Below, piece by piece: positions 1,397-14,734 of a stretch of 64,000 nt of DNA. The position numbers and the translations under genes are program-made. This stretch comes from Halarchaeum grantii (GTDB taxonomy: Archaea; Halobacteriota; Halobacteria; Halobacteriales; Halobacteriaceae). The notes under the pieces are model-generated. The model worked only from the letters and a program-made list of their open reading frames with translations, was not told where the DNA came from and did no database searches. The first letter of the stretch is position 1; the number at the start of each line of letters is the position of its first letter. The stretch covers positions 682,001 to 746,000 of the forward strand of contig NZ_BMPF01000001.1 in assembly GCF_014647455.2 (NCBI RefSeq), in the 5' to 3' direction.

Positions 1397-2749
1397 ATGA
1401 GTGTCATAAAGCAACAGGCGAGTTCGGAGGCAGAGATTCGAGAACAGCTCCGCAAGATCACGGAGCCGTGGGAGAAGTCGCGGCAGGCGCTCGGAGACAT
1501 CACGGCACAGAACCACGACGACGGCGAGGTGATCCACAAGCACTTCTCGGTGCCGCCGCTGCACAAGTATCTCGCGAAGGCGGATCGCGCGGGCGCACCA
1601 GTCGCGCAGTTCCCTCGCGCGTTCGTCGACAACATCCTCTATACGGATAGTCGCGACCTCGAGCTGATGCGCCAGCTGGCCGGAGAGGTCGACTACGACT
1701 TCCGTGATCCGAACCCGTCGCACGAGGCGCTCGAACGATACGGCCGGTACCGTGCGAAGCTGATCGAGTGGGTGTGTGACGATCCGCGCCGTGTCTCCGA
1801 GGTCCGGAGCGAGGGCGGGACGGACATGTTCATGCACGGCGAGCCGGGGGGTGGGAAGACGACGCTCGCGCTCTCGAACGCGATGTGGCGGATGCAGGTG
1901 AACAACGAGACGTTCATCTGGGCGGAGTCAGTCGACGAGTCGGGGACGAACGAGCGGACGGAGTGGCTGGCGTTCGCGCCGTACGCGACGCTGGCGATCC
2001 CGGAGGGACTGGGAACATCAGTCCGGGTCGTGCCGAGGGACACGACGGTCGGGTCGTTCACCGTCGACGTCGAGGAGATCGCGCGAGACGTGATCTACTA
2101 CGACTCGATCCATGATCTGATGACGCAGCTGATGCCGGGGCAGTTCTACGTCGTGTTCCCGGACCCACTGCATCGCGGGTGCGAGGACGTCTCGAAGTTC
2201 AACTACATCAACTTCGAGCAGGTGACGCCGCGCAACGAGGACGGGCCGGATGAGCCGACCGACGCCGATCAGTGGTGGTTCGCGTTCGTGGCGCACCGGA
2301 TCAGCGGCGACGTCTACACGCATCCGACGTTCATCAACCTCGACGAGGCGGGGAACCTCCTCGACCCGGACGCGGCGAAGGACGTCCACCAGCACTATCA
2401 GAAGGTGAAGTGGTTCCGCGACAAGTACGCTGACGCGCGGAAGAAGGGCGTGAGCTTCGGCTATCAGGCACACGCGCTCTCGGAGATCAACAAGTTCCCC
2501 CGGCAGAAGATCCGGTGGCGCGTGACGATGAGCGGGAACGCGCCGCCGATCGGGCGGAAGCTTCCTGGTGATCGTGAGTGCCCGATGACTGCGGACCTGA
2601 CGAGTTCGATGGACGCTGGGCAGGCGGTGATCTGGAAGTCGCCGCACTTCGCGGAGATCAAGTGGCCGAACATGAAGGGGCAGGCGCGTCTCGACGCGGA
2701 GGTCTCGATCGACTTCGAGCGCTGGCAGGATGCGGCTGGGGGTGCCTGA
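1397..2749 (+). CDS. P-loop ATPase of integrated element (pleolipovirus VP8-like)
   Basis: A 450-residue protein starting at the ATG two bases after the previous stop. It has a clear Walker A motif (GEPGGGKTT, residues 148-156) and a Walker B-like strand ending in Asp-Glu (FINLDEAGN, about 312-320). About 140 mainly helical residues precede the nucleotide-binding core. There is no membrane segment. ATPases with this layout, downstream of membrane and structural genes, are characteristic of haloarchaeal pleolipoviruses (VP8 in HRPV-1) and related proviruses, with a suggested role in virion assembly or DNA handling. The ATPase fold is well supported; the exact viral role is inferred from family and gene order. 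Confidence 0.85.
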   Translation: MSVIKQQASSEAEIREQLRKITEPWEKSRQALGDITAQNHDDGEVIHKHFSVPPLHKYLAKADRAGAPVAQFPRAFVDNILYTDSRDLELMRQLAGEVDYDFRDPNPSHEALERYGRYRAKLIEWVCDDPRRVSEVRSEGGTDMFMHGEPGGGKTTLALSNAMWRMQVNNETFIWAESVDESGTNERTEWLAFAPYATLAIPEGLGTSVRVVPRDTTVGSFTVDVEEIARDVIYYDSIHDLMTQLMPGQFYVVFPDPLHRGCEDVSKFNYINFEQVTPRNEDGPDEPTDADQWWFAFVAHRISGDVYTHPTFINLDEAGNLLDPDAAKDVHQHYQKVKWFRDKYADARKKGVSFGYQAHALSEINKFPRQKIRWRVTMSGNAPPIGRKLPGDRECPMTADLTSSMDAGQAVIWKSPHFAEIKWPNMKGQARLDAEVSIDFERWQDAAGGA

Positions 2750-3547: not shown

Positions 3548-3946
3548 ATGGATCTCGGACTGCTCGGGCCGGTGTTCTGCGTCGTCTGGGCCGTCATGTG
3601 GCTCGTGGACCGCTATCGGTCGCGCCTGCCGCTCCGGGTGCGCGTATGGCTTGGCGATATCGACCTCGAGGACCCACGGACGGAGGACGCGGTGAAGCTG
3701 GCGTACATAGAAGGAGAGATCACGCTGGATGAGTTGGAGCGGCGGCTGTCGGTAATCGTCGATCCGCGCGCCGAACAGTTACAGCGCTCGGTGGAGGCGG
3801 TGTCGGGGGTCGGGCCGAAGACGGCGTGGTCACTCGCGGAAGCGTTCGCTGACGAGGATGAGTTGCGTGCGGCGTCGCGCGAGGAGCTGGAGAGGGTGCC
3901 GAACGTCGGTGAGGAGCGTGCGCGAGCGATTCGCGAGCGTCTATAG
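3548..3946 (+). CDS. Membrane-anchored SHOCT-like plus helix-hairpin-helix protein
   Basis: A 132-residue protein in three parts. There is an N-terminal transmembrane anchor (LGPVFCVVWAVMWLV, residues 5-20). A short segment near residue 55 resembles the SHOCT family (EGEITLDELERRL). A C-terminal helix-hairpin-helix pair (SGVGPKTAWSLAEAF and VPNVGEERARAI) is the fold that usually contacts DNA non-specifically. The layout suggests a protein that tethers DNA to the membrane, for example during packaging or segregation of the element. It ends the rightward operon. The domain reading is from motifs; the role is inference. Confidence 0.7.
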   Translation: MDLGLLGPVFCVVWAVMWLVDRYRSRLPLRVRVWLGDIDLEDPRTEDAVKLAYIEGEITLDELERRLSVIVDPRAEQLQRSVEAVSGVGPKTAWSLAEAFADEDELRAASREELERVPNVGEERARAIRERL

Positions 3947-4302
3947 CTCGTGGCTGGCTCGGCAGCGCAGTGGTGGAACGATGAAATCGGAGGTGCACCT
4001 GCAAGTGTTTCGTGTGTTTCACGGTGCGGTGCTGCGGCGTAGCGGGTATTTTTTGCCCGTCTCTTTAGGGACACTTCCTAAGGGGGTGCCGACACCCCGT
4101 GTCGCAGCCCCGCGAGGTCCGCGACCTCGTCGAGCGTGCTCGACGCCGAAGGTGTCGCGTGTCCGAGTGATTCGGCGCGCGCGAGGGAGATCTTCGCGAG
4201 CGTCCGAAACGGCTGTAGAATCGGGGAAGCAGCCCGCTACGCCGGCTCAGAAAACGATCGGAAGAAGAGCGCTGGATAGTGTTGCCACTGGGTCGGAGCC
4301 GG
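3947..4302. other. Structured non-coding gap between convergent units of the element
   Basis: There is no credible gene in these 356 bases, which separate two converging transcription units. A T-tract at about 4049-4055 sits between short GGG and CCC arms and could terminate the rightward operon. TTAGG and CCTAA arms follow near 4067-4080. Three perfect inverted repeats come next: 4083-4098 (6-bp stem), 4113-4129 (7-bp stem, 3-base loop) and 4129-4144 (7-bp stem, 2-base loop). Further weak palindromes reach about 4260. Such clustering suits a terminator block, a replication origin or a structured RNA; I cannot choose among these. Confidence 0.55.
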
Positions 4303-6321
4303 TCAGCCGAGGACCGTGCTCGAGGACAGGAGGTGTTCCGGCTCGCCAAGATAGCGAAGCTCGCTACCGACGACTCGGACGATCCGACTCGTCTCAGTCT
4401 GTCGCTCGCCGTTCTCGTTGATCCAGCGGAGGTTCGCGGTCTCGAAGCGCTCGGTTCCGAGGCCGGCGCGGATCCACGCCTTGTGGCCAGCGCGGAGGAG
4501 GGCGGCGACCTCCTTCCGGCTGTAGCGCGTGGCGCCGAGGTCGATCTCGAGGTCGTCCTCGGCGGCGTCGGCGAAGGAGACGCCGTAGCGGTTCATCCAC
4601 TTCGCGAGAGCGCTGTCGGCGTCGAGGTTCGCGGCGGACAGCTGGTTCGCGATCTTCCGGCCGGTGGTCTCCACGGCTGACCGAAGCGAGTCGACGGCCT
4701 GGTGGACGGACTTCTTCAGGTGGTTGGTGACGAACTTCAGGTTCCCGTTGTCGCTCTCGACGATTCCCTCGAGGCGTTCGAGGGCGCGCCAGAGCGTGCG
4801 GGTGGAGATGTCCGCCGAGTCGGCGACCTCGCTGTAGTGTTGGTCTTCGCCGCCGTCAGTGAGGACCTCCAGGACGTCGAGCTCGCGGTCACCCATCGCG
4901 TCGGGGGAGAAGACGCGCGTGACGAGATGCTCCTGCTCGGCGCGGAGTTCGGGCGTCGGGTCGGGATGGGTCGCGATGTTCCGGTCCTCGGCGCCGACCT
5001 CGAAGTACTCGTCCTCGACGAAGATCCACGGGTGCGGGCCGGTCGGGAGGTCGGACCAGTGAAGGAGGTTGATGAGCGCCTCGTCGAGTTCGCGGTCGAG
5101 TCGGTCGCGGTCGCTCCAGGTGATCGAGCCCCCCGACTTCTTGCTGTCGAGAGCGACGCCGATCTTCGGATGGTAGAGCGGGCTGTCTTCGTCGTCGTTG
5201 ACGGTTCGAGGGTGATAGTGCTTGAACTTCTTGCCGAGCGAGTGCCCGGAGATGAGCTTTCCCGCTGCGCGGTTGTCGACTTCGACGCGATGGAGGTGCC
5301 CCTCGATGTCGGTGTCGTCGCGGTAGTAGACGAGCTTCTGGCCCTCGCGGCCGGCGAACTCCATGAGACGTTTGAGCGCGCCTTCCCAGCCGACGACCTG
5401 TTTGCTCTTCTGCCGGTCGATGCGGACGTAGCGCTCGAACTGGGTGATGCGGCTGTCCGGGTGGACGAGCTTCGGCGCGACGTATCGATGCATCCGACCG
5501 CCGGTCTCGGTATCGACGATCTCGTCGACGACGCGGTTCACGAGCTTCGGATAGGCGTCCGGCTCAAGGTTCGAACCCTGCACGTCGACGCTCAGGCCCT
5601 CGAAGTCTCTCGGAACAGGAATCGACTTCCCGGACTTCGACGTCATCCCGCTCCACGCGGGCGTGATGTGGAGACTGGCCTTCTTCTCCTCGAGGCCGTC
5701 CTCGGCACACACGGAGATGTAGAACTCGTACGTCGAGTCGAAGTCCATGTTTTCGTGCGGCTCGATGTTCCCCTTCTGGTAGGTGAGTCGCGAGAGCCTC
5801 CAGGTCTCGCCCTGGAACTGGAAGCGCGGAAGGTCGGGATGGTCGCTCGGGTCAAGATCCTTCCCGAGCGGGAGCTCGTCGAGACGGCCGTTGTCTCCGA
5901 GCATCGCTCCCCGGATCGCGTAGAACGCGCTGAACGGCTTCCGGCCCGGCGTGCTCCTGTGCTGACCGTAGTAGAAGTACGCCTGGAACTCGTGGGGCGC
6001 AGTCTTCTGGTAGGTCGTGGTCTGCTGCTCGTGAAGGAGTTCGTCGAGATCGTGGCGTCCGTCGCAGCGATGGCGACCGTCCTCGGAACGACGGTCGAAC
6101 GTCTCCTGGCAGAACCGACAACAGCGTCCGTCGATCTCCTCGAGGGAGAGGTCGCTGATGTCCTCGTTGTCGCTGTCCTCCAGGTCGGGAGCGTGCTGGT
6201 CGCCGTCGAGGACGCCGTCGTCGAAGAGAGCGAGCGCATCATCGCCGTCGAGGTCGGCGGCGTCGGCAGGCTCGTCGAAGTCGCCGAAGTCGTGCTGGTC
6301 GCGTCCGGGGCGACGCGTCAT
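4303..6321 (-). CDS. Large zinc-finger/wHTH protein of integrated element
   Basis: A 672-residue protein. It has a very acidic 65-residue N-terminus, then a compact metal-binding cluster (Cys67, Cys68, Cys71, His84, Cys86, His90). A long central domain contains HEFQAYFYY and many conserved aromatic positions. A predicted winged helix-turn-helix lies near residues 470-525 (YSEVADSADISTRTLWRALERL). The stop of the preceding 45-residue zinc gene overlaps this ATG. Large proteins of this type recur in haloarchaeal proviruses and plasmids, and I tentatively think of the DUF7845 group. A role in replication or regulation is plausible but not shown. Confidence 0.75.
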   Translation of the reverse strand: MTRRPGRDQHDFGDFDEPADAADLDGDDALALFDDGVLDGDQHAPDLEDSDNEDISDLSLEEIDGRCCRFCQETFDRRSEDGRHRCDGRHDLDELLHEQQTTTYQKTAPHEFQAYFYYGQHRSTPGRKPFSAFYAIRGAMLGDNGRLDELPLGKDLDPSDHPDLPRFQFQGETWRLSRLTYQKGNIEPHENMDFDSTYEFYISVCAEDGLEEKKASLHITPAWSGMTSKSGKSIPVPRDFEGLSVDVQGSNLEPDAYPKLVNRVVDEIVDTETGGRMHRYVAPKLVHPDSRITQFERYVRIDRQKSKQVVGWEGALKRLMEFAGREGQKLVYYRDDTDIEGHLHRVEVDNRAAGKLISGHSLGKKFKHYHPRTVNDDEDSPLYHPKIGVALDSKKSGGSITWSDRDRLDRELDEALINLLHWSDLPTGPHPWIFVEDEYFEVGAEDRNIATHPDPTPELRAEQEHLVTRVFSPDAMGDRELDVLEVLTDGGEDQHYSEVADSADISTRTLWRALERLEGIVESDNGNLKFVTNHLKKSVHQAVDSLRSAVETTGRKIANQLSAANLDADSALAKWMNRYGVSFADAAEDDLEIDLGATRYSRKEVAALLRAGHKAWIRAGLGTERFETANLRWINENGERQTETSRIVRVVGSELRYLGEPEHLLSSSTVLG

Positions 6322-6455: not shown

Positions 6456-6578
6456 GCAGCATCACCCCCGAAAACAGCCCTACTTGAAAGAGGGGGTTGT
6501 ATGCACTTCTGGTTAAGTAGTAATTTGTCGAGTGAAGTCCTGAACCGGGTGGTGTCCCGATGCAGGAGTGTGAGAAGT

Positions 6579-6650
6579 GGGACCGTTGAGATTTGAACTC
6601 AAGTCCGACGGACCCCATCCGCCGAGGATACCAAGCTACCCCACGGCCCC
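6579..6650 (-). tRNA. tRNA-Pro (GGG)
   Basis: A 72-base tRNA on the minus strand. The acceptor arms GGGGCCG and CGGTCCC pair with one G-U. The D arm has GG at the usual place. The anticodon stem GGCGG/CCGTC encloses loop ATGGGGT, giving anticodon GGG. The T arm is TTGAG-TTCAAAT-CTCAA. CCA is not encoded. Its 5' side faces the cbf5 end of the ribosomal cluster and its 3' end faces the integrated element, the usual orientation when a tRNA 3' end is the attachment site. Confidence 0.93.
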
Positions 6651-12382: not shown

Positions 12383-13020
12383 CACTCGATCACCTCGCGC
12401 TTCTCGCGCGTGCGCTCGGGAATGCGGGCTTCCGCCGTGTTCTGGAGCGCGTTGAACGTCGCCTTCGCGAAGTTCACGGTCGTCCGGGTCTTCCCGGCGG
12501 ACTTCGTCCAGACGTCCTCGATACCGGCGAGTTCGAGGACGTTCCGGACCGTCTCACCGCCCGCGAGGCCGAGGCCGCGCGGCGCGGGGATCAGGTCGAC
12601 GGAGACGCTCCCGGCCTTGCCGGTCGTCTTCAGTGCGACCGTGTGCGGACGCCCACAGCCACACTCCCACGACCCACAGCCACGGGAGACGTCGATGATG
12701 TTCAGCTTCGCGACCTCGATGGCCTTCTGGATGGCACCGCCGACCTGGTCGTCGCGACCCTCGGCGTAGCCGACGAAGCCGTCGCGGTTACCGACCGCGA
12801 CGACACACCGGAACTTCACCCGGCGGCCGGAGTCCGTCATCCGCTGGACCATGTTGATGTCCAGTACCTCGTCGTCGAGCCCCGGAAGGAGGTTGTCGAC
12901 GATCTCGGGCTCCTTCAGCGGGAGTCCGGAGTTCAGCGCCTCCGACATCGACTCGATCTCGCCGTCCTGAACGAGGCGGCCGAGTCGCGTCTGGGGCTGC
13001 CAGCTGTCGTTGTAGCTCAT
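12382..13020 (-). CDS. rps5: Ribosomal protein uS5
   Basis: A 212-residue small-subunit protein with the N-terminal double-stranded RNA-binding-like domain ([16 protein letters not shown], residues 74-89) and the C-terminal S5 domain ([21 protein letters not shown]). A Cys cluster, [11 protein letters not shown] near residue 112, is typical of archaeal uS5 and may bind metal. uS5 lies at the mRNA entry site. It is translationally coupled to uL30. Confidence 0.97.
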
Positions 13021-13023
13021 TCG

Positions 13024-13575
13024 TTAGTCCTCCTGGATGGATTCGAGCACGTCGTCGAAGTGCTCGGGGAGTTCGGTTGCGTCGAAGTCACCGCTGTAGA
13101 GCGGCTCGTCGAGCTGTTCTGCGTAGTCCGCGATGTGCTCGCCGCGCGTGCGCGACCAGTCCGCGAAGACGGACTCGTTGTGCGGGACGTCCAGGCCGGC
13201 GTCGATGACGCCCTCCTGGATGGCGAACACCTTCGACCCCTTGGTCGCGGCGTTCAGCCCGATGTCCAGCACGGCCTCGTCGAGGTCGACCTCACGGGCG
13301 CGAAGTCCCGCGAGGTAGCCGGTCAGGTAGGCCGACGGGAGGTTCCCCGTGGGCGCGTCCCAGCCGTACTCTTCGAGGTCGGTCGCCTGTGCACTCGCGA
13401 GCGTCTCGTCGCCGTGGGGACCGGTCGCGACCAGCTGCGCCGTGACGTTGTTGTTGCTCTTTCGAGCGACAAGCCGGGGCTTGCCCGACTTGAGGAGGCG
13501 CAACCTCTGATGGTAGTCCGTCCGGACCTCGCGGCGGCGGCGCATCGGAACCTTGTATCGTGGTCCGCTAGCCAT
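13024..13575 (-). CDS. rpl18: Ribosomal protein uL18
   Basis: A 183-residue 5S rRNA-binding protein. It has the basic N-terminus [20 protein letters not shown], the RLVARKSNNN strand, and a long C-terminal archaeal/eukaryotic extension. The start overlaps the eL19 stop by one base (TAATG). Together with uL5 and 5S rRNA it forms the central protuberance. Confidence 0.97.
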   Translation of the reverse strand: MASGPRYKVPMRRRREVRTDYHQRLRLLKSGKPRLVARKSNNNVTAQLVATGPHGDETLASAQATDLEEYGWDAPTGNLPSAYLTGYLAGLRAREVDLDEAVLDIGLNAATKGSKVFAIQEGVIDAGLDVPHNESVFADWSRTRGEHIADYAEQLDEPLYSGDFDATELPEHFDDVLESIQED

Positions 13576-14024
13576 TATTGCTCACCGTATTGGTCTTCGA
13601 TGTAGTTGTGCATCCGGCGAACGCTGTCGAACTCGCCACCCTTCGCCATGTTGTAGAGGTCACGGTACTGGGATGGCGTGAGTTCACCGCTGTCCCGAAG
13701 CTCACGGAGCTCCTGGCGCTGTGCGCGGATGCTGCTCTTCCACTCGTCCTTCTTGTTCTGGCGGGCGCCCGCCTTACCGCGGCGCTTGCCCGGCCCCTTG
13801 CGGTGGCCGTACGCGCGCTTCGCGTCCCGTTCCCGGGCGCGGCCACGCGAGTTGCCCTGCTTGGCTTCCGCCTGAATGGTGCCCTGCTGGACGAGGTCAC
13901 GGATGTCCTCACGCGTGATGGCGTCCGCGATCTCCTCCTGGGCGGCGGGGTCGAACCAGACGCGGTTCTTCCCGACGTCGAGGACGTCGGCCGCGAGTCG
14001 CTTCTGTGCACTCAGGTCAGTCAT
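13575..14024 (-). CDS. rpl19e: Ribosomal protein eL19
   Basis: A 149-residue archaeal/eukaryotic-specific large-subunit protein. It begins [20 protein letters not shown], continues with the [20 protein letters not shown] helices, and has the long basic stretch [18 protein letters not shown] that lies along rRNA. It overlaps the eL32 stop by four bases (ATGA). Length and order are normal for archaea. Confidence 0.97.
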
Positions 14025-14734
14025 TCTTCGACCTCCACTTCGACGTAGGTCGGGTTGAGGACGCGGATGCCCGCCTCCTCGGCCTGGTCCTCGATGGTCT
14101 CGCGCTTGCGCGCGCCGACCTTCGAGGCGATGCGGACCGCTTCCGTGTCAGGATCGACGCCGTCGAGGTCGTCCGCGTTGTGCACGCGGACCTCCTCGAA
14201 GCCGCTCGGGTGCTTCCCGCGCACCGCTTTCGGCGTCCGGAAGCCGGCCTCGACCTTCGGGCCCTTGCCCTTGATGCCCCGTCGCTGCTTCGAGAGCTGA
14301 CCGCGGGGCTTGCGCCACGAGGTCGGGGTCCGCTTCTTCTTGTGGTAGTCCTGGCGGTTGAACTGCGGCTTGCCTTCGCGCCGGCGCTTGTCGAGGAGGC
14401 GTTCGGACTCCTCGTCGAGCTCCGGCGTCTTGTCGGCGTGGCCGCGCGGGCGGAGCTCCGTCTCCACCGCTTCCGCCTCTTCCTCGGCCGCTTCGGCCTC
14501 GGACGCTTCCTCTTCGAGTTCGGCCTCGGTCTCCTCGGAGACCTCGAGACCGCCGACGTCGGCCTTGATACGGGCCGCGAGCGCGTTCCCGACGCCGTCC
14601 ACGTCGGCGAGGTCGCTCTGGCTCGCTGCCTTCACGTCCTCGACCGTCTCGTAGCCGGCCTCGCGGAGCGCCTCGGCCTTGCTCGGGCCGACGCCGCTGA
14701 TGTCTTCGAGTTCCTGTGGTTCGTCGTCTGCCAT
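14021..14734 (-). CDS. rpl32e: Ribosomal protein eL32 with N-terminal helix-hairpin-helix extension
   Basis: A 237-residue protein. Residues 100-237 are eL32 proper ([20 protein letters not shown], then the [15 protein letters not shown] region). The first 60 residues form a helix-hairpin-helix module ([20 protein letters not shown] and [14 protein letters not shown]) joined by an acidic Glu/Ala linker. Such an extension is known in haloarchaeal eL32 but absent from most other archaea. It may add an RNA- or DNA-contact surface. Confidence 0.95.

Follow-up and report, generated by a model that had tools for sequence, protein, structure and literature searches.

We analysed a 64-kb stretch of Halarchaeum grantii DNA (the window) that includes the right end of an element integrated at tRNA-Pro, with ~26.6 kb between the two copies of the attachment site (att). 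The initial annotation had placed a convergence point of an integrated element in this stretch, and this proved correct: a plus-strand virion/ATPase-like module meets the minus-strand rep gene at positions 3947–4302, where a non-coding gap separates the two convergent gene sets (Table 1). A further att copy, at C1:647300, bounds a second provirus of ~14.7 kb. Hence, two proviruses lie in tandem, head to tail at one tRNA-Pro with three att copies, each with its own Rep-Arvir gene and origin core. An integrase-like gene (410 aa, minus strand) ends ~60 nt from the left att; Pfam finds in its product only an N-terminal SAM-like domain (E 5.8e-5). The rep gene, also on the minus strand, starts ~250 nt from the right att. 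Given these positions and orientations, excision would join the genes in the order int - attP - rep - origin.

Table 1. Features of the gap, the adjoining genes and the provirus; coordinates are those of the window unless a contig or locus is named.
Feature	Position	Strand	Remarks
Left attachment copy, 16 bp	about C1:661964		outside window
Further virion-like genes of the provirus	L006:9737-12676, 12892-14598		same module as window 1397-2749
450-aa ATPase-like protein	1397..2749	+	phrog_22963; P-loop-like stretch by eye; convergent module
132-aa helix-hairpin-helix protein	3548..3946	+	last gene of convergent module; Pfam PF14520, E 2.5e-10
Non-coding gap with the whole putative origin region	3947..4302	-	356 nt, behind rep
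Putative origin core	4031..4084	-	covariance models R1 and R2, window in neither training set
12-bp perfect inverted repeat, arm one	4035..4046	.	brackets origin element
Small palindrome CGGG...CCCG enclosing A/T-tract	4043..4059	.	3' end of core
Predicted nick hairpin GTCCC-TAAA-GAGAC	4059..4072	-	five-pair stem with one C-A mismatch
GC-rich palindrome, 6 bp, loop 4	4083..4098	-	directly precedes TTAG
Alternative hairpin, 6 bp, loop 3	4090..4104		overlaps 4083-4098 palindrome
Variable palindrome, 7-bp stem, loop 3	4113..4129	.	hairpin search
Variable palindrome, 8-bp stem, loop 2	4128..4145	.	hairpin search
12-bp perfect inverted repeat, arm two	4233..4244	.	brackets origin element
Motif 1, AGTGGCAACACTATCC	4274..4289	-	from 14th nt after rep stop; T-rich stretch follows
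rep, predicted 672-aa Rep-Arvir rolling-circle initiator	4303..6321	-	PF25227, phrog_3288, alignment with SNJ2
Right attachment site, 16 bp	6575..6590	.	3' end of tRNA-Pro (6577-6650, -)

The integrase-like gene (L005:10038-11270, -) also reads across the shared att toward the rep of the neighbouring left provirus, and the tandem arrangement may therefore create a hybrid int-rep operon without excision. Elsewhere in the provirus are a Cdc6/Orc1-type gene and a second, short integrase of 220 aa (L006:2912-4132 (-) and 4006-4668 (+)); the lemon-shaped virus LSV-48N is similar in having a DnaA-like gene and a short integrase.

The rep product matched Pfam PF25227 (DUF7845) with an E-value of 2.5e-87 (293.7 bits, cut-off 27) and phrog_3288 with an E-value of 2.7e-113. 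It comprises a DUF7845 endonuclease domain (~residues 100–450) followed by a MarR-like winged helix (~455–566), over which MarR/ArsR-type structures align with model residues 455–566 at Z ~9 (Foldseek probability 1.00). Its homologue in the betapleolipovirus SNJ2 (orf19) is reported to be required for replication and is argued to be a rolling-circle initiator, with single-stranded intermediates described and with mutants of Tyr283, Glu25 or Glu303 abolishing replication (PMC13107129, April 2026). In an alignment of 10 Reps, Tyr369 and Glu111 of the window Rep align with SNJ2 Y283 and E25, and Gly388 occupies the place of E303, as it does in several of the virus Reps. We assign the protein, on these matches, as a predicted Rep-Arvir rolling-circle initiator with Tyr369 as the candidate catalytic residue.

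Because a full-length model of Rep gave PDB matches mainly to winged-helix structures, we folded the DUF7845 domain separately (AlphaFold, pLDDT 88.8). The best 35 rows of a VIA-align comparison with solved structures were all TBPs or TBP complexes (best TBP row: Z 9.3, 176 residues, rmsd 4.2), and the N-terminal domain is accordingly modelled with a TBP-like fold. RepDE, a Rep_trans initiator of Staphylococcus plasmids, aligned with the domain over 202 residues in two entries (4cwe, Z 7.0, rmsd 4.8; 4cwc, Z 6.7), and unrelated folds scored about equally (BamC domain, Z 7.2; phosphoglucomutases, Z 6.8). Since RepDE scores no higher than unrelated folds, the case for a relation to Rep_trans depends on what has been argued in print and on Inoviridae G2P, which is among the matches of the domain in BFVD, a set of predicted viral structures (E 2.7e-4). 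As argued in PMC13107129, pT181/RepDE-type origins share a bipartite logic of bind palindrome and nick hairpin; the same report describes no recognizable sequence similarity to Rep_trans, and the archaeal Rep adds the MarR-like winged helix.

A search of phage records with Rep returned 21 matches. The best 20 of the 21 belong to haloarchaeal pleomorphic viruses and LSV-48N; among those listed, it is the LSV-48N Rep that matched the window Rep with the lowest E-value. Neither rep alone nor the ATPase-like protein alone, used as query, found close relatives in viral contigs. The nearest Reps in a draw of 391 genomes are 34–39% identical. In a tree of 62 Reps, for which canonical rows were thinned by hand and groups named by locus and not by a sequence rule, the window Rep falls in a set of 20 rows (support 100) containing no placed virus record. 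An earlier tree, which had 86 rows and lacked these close relatives, places it on a branch of length 2.0; its branch is long in both trees (0.98 to 2.0). The earlier tree left out partial or ill-cut rows (L114, L116, L119, L130) and copies (L009, L010, L019, L022, L049, L050), and retained L042 though mis-cut (117 aa), such that the position of L042 is meaningless; L068, which has a stop within its stretch, was left out of the fold alignments. The replicase of Haloquadratum pL6-family plasmids is also homologous to the window Rep, and conserved intergenic sequences are reported between F3 and R7 of these plasmids, likewise a convergence zone (PMC5974055, PMC11431627).

Palindromes in the gap

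The initial annotation drew attention to three perfect stems in the gap, and all three are present, at 4083–4098, 4113–4129 and 4128–4145. The third, which had been given as 4129–4144, is one pair longer, and its overlap with the second is two bases, not one. The TTAGG/CCTAA arms that had also been described are at 4065–4081, and the T-tract lies within a further small palindrome, 4043–4059. Hairpin centres whose stems reach 6 bp or more number 4 in the whole gap. Dinucleotide shuffles average 0.54, and 5 of 2000 reached 4. For the stretch 4080–4150, which was picked post hoc, none of 2000 shuffles matched its number of hairpin centres. Counting clusters of at least three hairpin centres in 62 nt across the 64 kb, we obtained 20 start points in ~10 places, the gap cluster included. 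The cluster is unusual but not unique in the window, and palindromes alone are insufficient to decide its function. The origin element is bracketed by a 12-bp perfect inverted repeat whose arms are 186 nt apart; such a repeat was present in 4 of 1000 shuffles of the gap. Predicted single-strand folding of 4031–4150, computed as DNA, was modest (z -2.0), with 11 of 200 shuffles folding equally well.

The predicted nick hairpin, 4059–4072, is conserved and was absent from the stems of the initial annotation. The case for function is carried by this comparative evidence, i.e. by a conserved element, and not by the perfection of the stems; to judge from the alignments, the perfect GC-rich stems that first drew notice are the variable part of the region. 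A DNA search with the whole gap against 26 genomes of the family gave short matches, mostly over 4108–4145, which we read, without regard to their contexts, as coincidental GC-rich similarity.

A conserved core and its predicted nick hairpin

On the rep strand, the gap presents motif 1 (4289–4274), the GC-rich palindrome (4098–4083), TTAG and a TAA-loop nick hairpin (4072–4059), with the core ~220 nt behind the rep stop. Most related loci have the same order: motif 1 behind the rep stop, then a core of the form TTAGNNGTGT-GGC-TAAG-GCC-AC ~170–240 nt further on. We built a covariance model (R1) from 67 loci, excluding the window and including the core of the neighbouring provirus. R1 matched the window at 4031–4084(-) with 23.8 bits (E 2.4e-4 in 119.5 kb). 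A second model (R2), built from 14 close relatives with both cores of this genome excluded, matched the window core with 37.0 bits (E 5.9e-5 genome-wide). When R2 was run over the 3.02-Mb genome, with 150 of 232 first-look candidates scored, two sites had E-values of at most 1. One is the window core and the other the core of the neighbouring provirus (C1:658677 region), and a Rep-Arvir gene precedes each of them. R1 over the whole genome found the same two sites plus one at E 0.9. Close relatives share a core type, TTAGGRAGTGT-GCC-TAAG-GGC-AC followed by an A-tract, that differs slightly from the main consensus. Among related loci, R1 matched 86 of 89 at E up to 1, with 53 of the 89 having trained the model and several others being copies of one virus or genome; the misses were L119, which is cut at a contig end, and L054 and L055, in which the hairpin appears by eye to be changed.

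Base-pair evidence from ~100 loci supports the reality of the nick hairpin. In an alignment of 67 cores, 96.1% of the cells of the five-pair stem are paired, and two-sided stem changes occur in 16 cells, compared with 2.4 in shuffles; rival registers, with the partner slid by 1–3 columns, are at most 41% paired. The stem arms take seven fully Watson-Crick forms among 104 loci. For the GC-rich palindrome before TTAG, 65 of the 73 loci compared, a set that includes the window, have a best stem above the mean of their shuffles; in the window itself this palindrome is weak, with a 6-bp stem arising in 15 of 40 shuffles of that stretch.

The window's own nick hairpin forms four of the five pairs and has the TAA loop. 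The second pair from the loop is a C-A mismatch, a position broken in the window alone among 104 loci counted with a script which picks the best register among several and so favours intact stems; L111, omitted from that count, breaks the same pair. Other departures are the broken innermost pair of L100, a T-G at the innermost pair of L020, three of five pairs in L170, and the loss of only the outermost pair in ten loci, SNJ2 included. The direct-oriented close relatives (L155–L169, L171, L172) have the complete five-pair stem in 17 of 17 cases. As the source of the mismatch we considered a 2-nt deletion from LSV-48N-like loops; one substitution relative to TAAA-loop relatives such as L120 is simpler. 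Because the conserved hairpin carries this mismatch, the present activity of the window's copy appears uncertain.

We also considered TTAGG/CCTAA as the functional hairpin. It is the preferred fold of the window core as single-stranded DNA, ahead of the nick hairpin, and was set aside because the nick stem is better kept and is favoured by the SNJ2 mutants. Of 104 loci, 10 break TTAG/CTAA (L013, L021, L053, L054, L055, L098, L102, L159, L162, L165), three retain it by G-T, two (the sisters L160 and L163) have it changed on both sides and the others have it plain, after seven rows with TTTA or TTTG before TTAG were re-registered by eye. This pairing is thus less well kept across the aligned loci than the nick stem, and may be an alternative fold.

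A putative rolling-circle origin in the integrated virus

The arrangement closely parallels the origin of SNJ2. In that virus, 210 nt behind rep are also required for replication, and the region contains motif 1 (positions 1–36), a variable inverted repeat (156–166) and a conserved hairpin (176–197); stem-breaking or loop mutants of the hairpin abolish replication, and a stem change that preserves pairing is tolerated (PMC13107129). The window, similarly, has a Rep with DUF7845 and winged helix, motif 1 after the stop, a variable inverted repeat, TTAG and a TAA-loop hairpin, and by homology with SNJ2 (PMC13107129) the palindrome 4083–4098 occupies the place of the inverted repeat at the Rep bind site. 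SNJ2 excision likewise joins int, attP, rep and the gap (PMC13107129). The window differs from SNJ2 in the second consensus of its core (TTAGGRAGTGT, with an A-tract after the hairpin), in the C-A mismatch, in the separate clade of its Rep, and in the other gene module, which is unmatched in phage records. LSV-48N and its relatives carry the same element behind the Rep-Arvir gene; unlike the window, this group, which is one clade, has a longer nick loop, TAAAGA or TAAGGA in most members. In this clade (L045, L054–L062) seven loci have the loop TAAAGA, two have TAAGGA, and L054 has a different change, such that origin and Rep seem to change together.

We therefore consider it highly probable that a Rep-Arvir rolling-circle replicon, carried here by an integrated virus, has its double-strand origin in the gap behind rep. 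The grounds, drawn from the window and its relatives, are the synteny and conservation of the element, the compensatory changes in its stem, the predicted fold and key residues of Rep, and the att sites; nicking at the window's site, the direction of replication and the continued function of this copy are inferences. The initial annotation had offered a replication origin, a packaging signal or a structured RNA. The first of these is now favoured by synteny, by matches to covariance models that were not trained on the window, by compensatory changes and by the SNJ2 experiments (PMC13107129); the other two gained no support. The Rep-Arvir origin type was first described in 2026 (PMC13107129) and has so far been mapped in one virus. 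Our analysis extends it to a Rep-Arvir clade with no placed virus record, and to a host genome in which two tandem proviruses at one tRNA-Pro each have their own putative rolling-circle origin.

On this model of an origin, excision at tRNA-Pro would bring the integrase gene (left end) and rep (right end) together as int - attP - rep - origin, a junction from which Rep can be made. Rep would bind near the GC-rich palindrome 4083–4098, the adjoining hairpin 4059–4072 would be extruded as a single strand, Tyr369 would nick the TAA loop of that hairpin on the rep strand, and the 3' end at the nick would prime rolling-circle synthesis. Motif 1 and the T-rich stretch would terminate the rep transcript ahead of the origin.

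The alternative with most to recommend it is that this was formerly a Rep-Arvir origin and is now dead, the mismatch blocking nicking and leaving the provirus stuck or dependent on its neighbour. We regard this as a real possibility, somewhat short of an even chance. It would account for a mismatch at a pair that forms in all 17 direct-oriented close relatives, given that two-base stem-breaking changes abolish SNJ2 replication (PMC13107129), and the long Rep branch is a further, weak indication. By contrast, the 672-aa frame of Rep is open and retains Tyr369 and Glu111, motif 1 has a common form, single mismatches occur elsewhere (the innermost pair of L100 and, in L111, the same pair as in the window), and the SNJ2 hairpin functions without its outermost pair.

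An improbable alternative is that the gap is merely a transcription-termination zone of two convergent operons. Its location at a convergence point, the T-runs near motif 1 and the end of the SNJ2 rep transcript 50 nt behind the gene (PMC13107129) are consistent with this. However, the core lies ~220 nt behind the stop and its stem letters change in compensation, and the distal hairpin of SNJ2 is essential for plasmid replication (PMC13107129); termination may account for motif 1 but not for the core. A structured small RNA transcribed from the gap is still less probable: there are several stems, and motif 1 is probably inside the rep transcript, but Rfam gave no family at the origin site at E up to 1 (elsewhere, one weak C/D-box match at 3814–3895 fell under its gathering score), the fold energy, computed as DNA, is only modestly low, and the core sequence is kept when inverted relative to rep, a better fit for DNA than for rep-strand RNA.

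The least probable alternative is a packaging signal, to which the ATPase-like gene in the convergent module might point; the element tracks rep and not the virion genes: it follows rep both in pleolipoviruses and in LSV-48N, a lemon-shaped virus, and the same virion module occurs with differing rep/origin cassettes. The ATPase-like protein has relatives of 67–75% identity in six further genomes (391 examined), and the virion-like module marks a provirus family in several haloarchaea. The initial annotation would have been contradicted by related elements lacking the repeats at this place; five of the six same-module proviruses carry rep and core, the core lying behind a Rep-Arvir gene, on the rep strand, with stems intact by eye. 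In the sixth (L174), neither rep nor core was found within the 18 kb examined. By identity, three of the Reps resemble that of the neighbouring provirus (48–52%) and one is nearer the window's (33%). This is an example of modular evolution: within one provirus family, the virion module is combined with more than one kind of rep/origin cassette. The likeness to pleolipoviruses, whose non-coding gaps the initial annotation had proposed for comparison, is confined at the sequence level to the replication module: three proteins of the other module (450, 979 and 568 aa) had no tblastn match at E 0.01 in 50,697 phage records, so that by sequence comparison no pleolipovirus spike or internal membrane protein was recognised in the 979- and 568-aa proteins.

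Motif 1 and the orientation of the core

Motif 1 of the window has a form common among relatives, and in 105 of the 108 loci where it was found it starts 9–16 nt behind the rep stop. Among 100 loci, counted without copies, ill-cut rows and three loci with no sure motif (L103, L104, L112), positions 3 and 8 are T-A in 72, A-T in 26, C-G in one and C-A in one; the sole exception to pairing is the C-A of L170. On a Rep tree of 81 rows, seven independent comparisons differ at position 3, and position 8 is concordant in all seven (sign test, p 0.016). A 4-bp hairpin of the GNRA type (AGTG-GCAA-CACT) was considered for motif 1 and rejected, since the covariation partner of position 3 is 8 and not 10. 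Runs of at least four Ts within 16–50 nt of the motif 1 start were present in 65 of 100 loci, compared with 26% in shuffles, and fit the published idea of a terminator (PMC13107129).

In eight loci (L066, L067, L068, L073, L114 and L117, also L154 and L170), core and rep are on opposite strands, and the tree requires two changes, i.e. at least two independent inversions. Motif 1 retains the orientation of rep in all eight. We tentatively propose, at rather less than even confidence, that motif 1 is a second, paired cis-element belonging to the end of rep, and that the core is a separable cassette which can lie in either orientation and would so reverse replication relative to rep. Under this proposal for motif 1, the paired positions may form a short hairpin or a dyad, either at the 3' end of the rep mRNA or in DNA, and may tie rep expression to the origin via termination or Rep feedback. 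Motif 1, at the 5' side of the gap, may act on the rep transcript. The pairing of motif 1 and the inverted cores apparently go beyond PMC13107129 and related literature, as judged from a limited search. The role of motif 1 and the direction of replication relative to rep, both left open by the SNJ2 work as set out in that report, now become testable.

One Halobacterium contig has a second, partial core (L064:6653-6698 (-), model positions 9–54, 40.3 bits) ~1.9 kb from the first, which could be the trace of a rolling-circle event or of an insertion.
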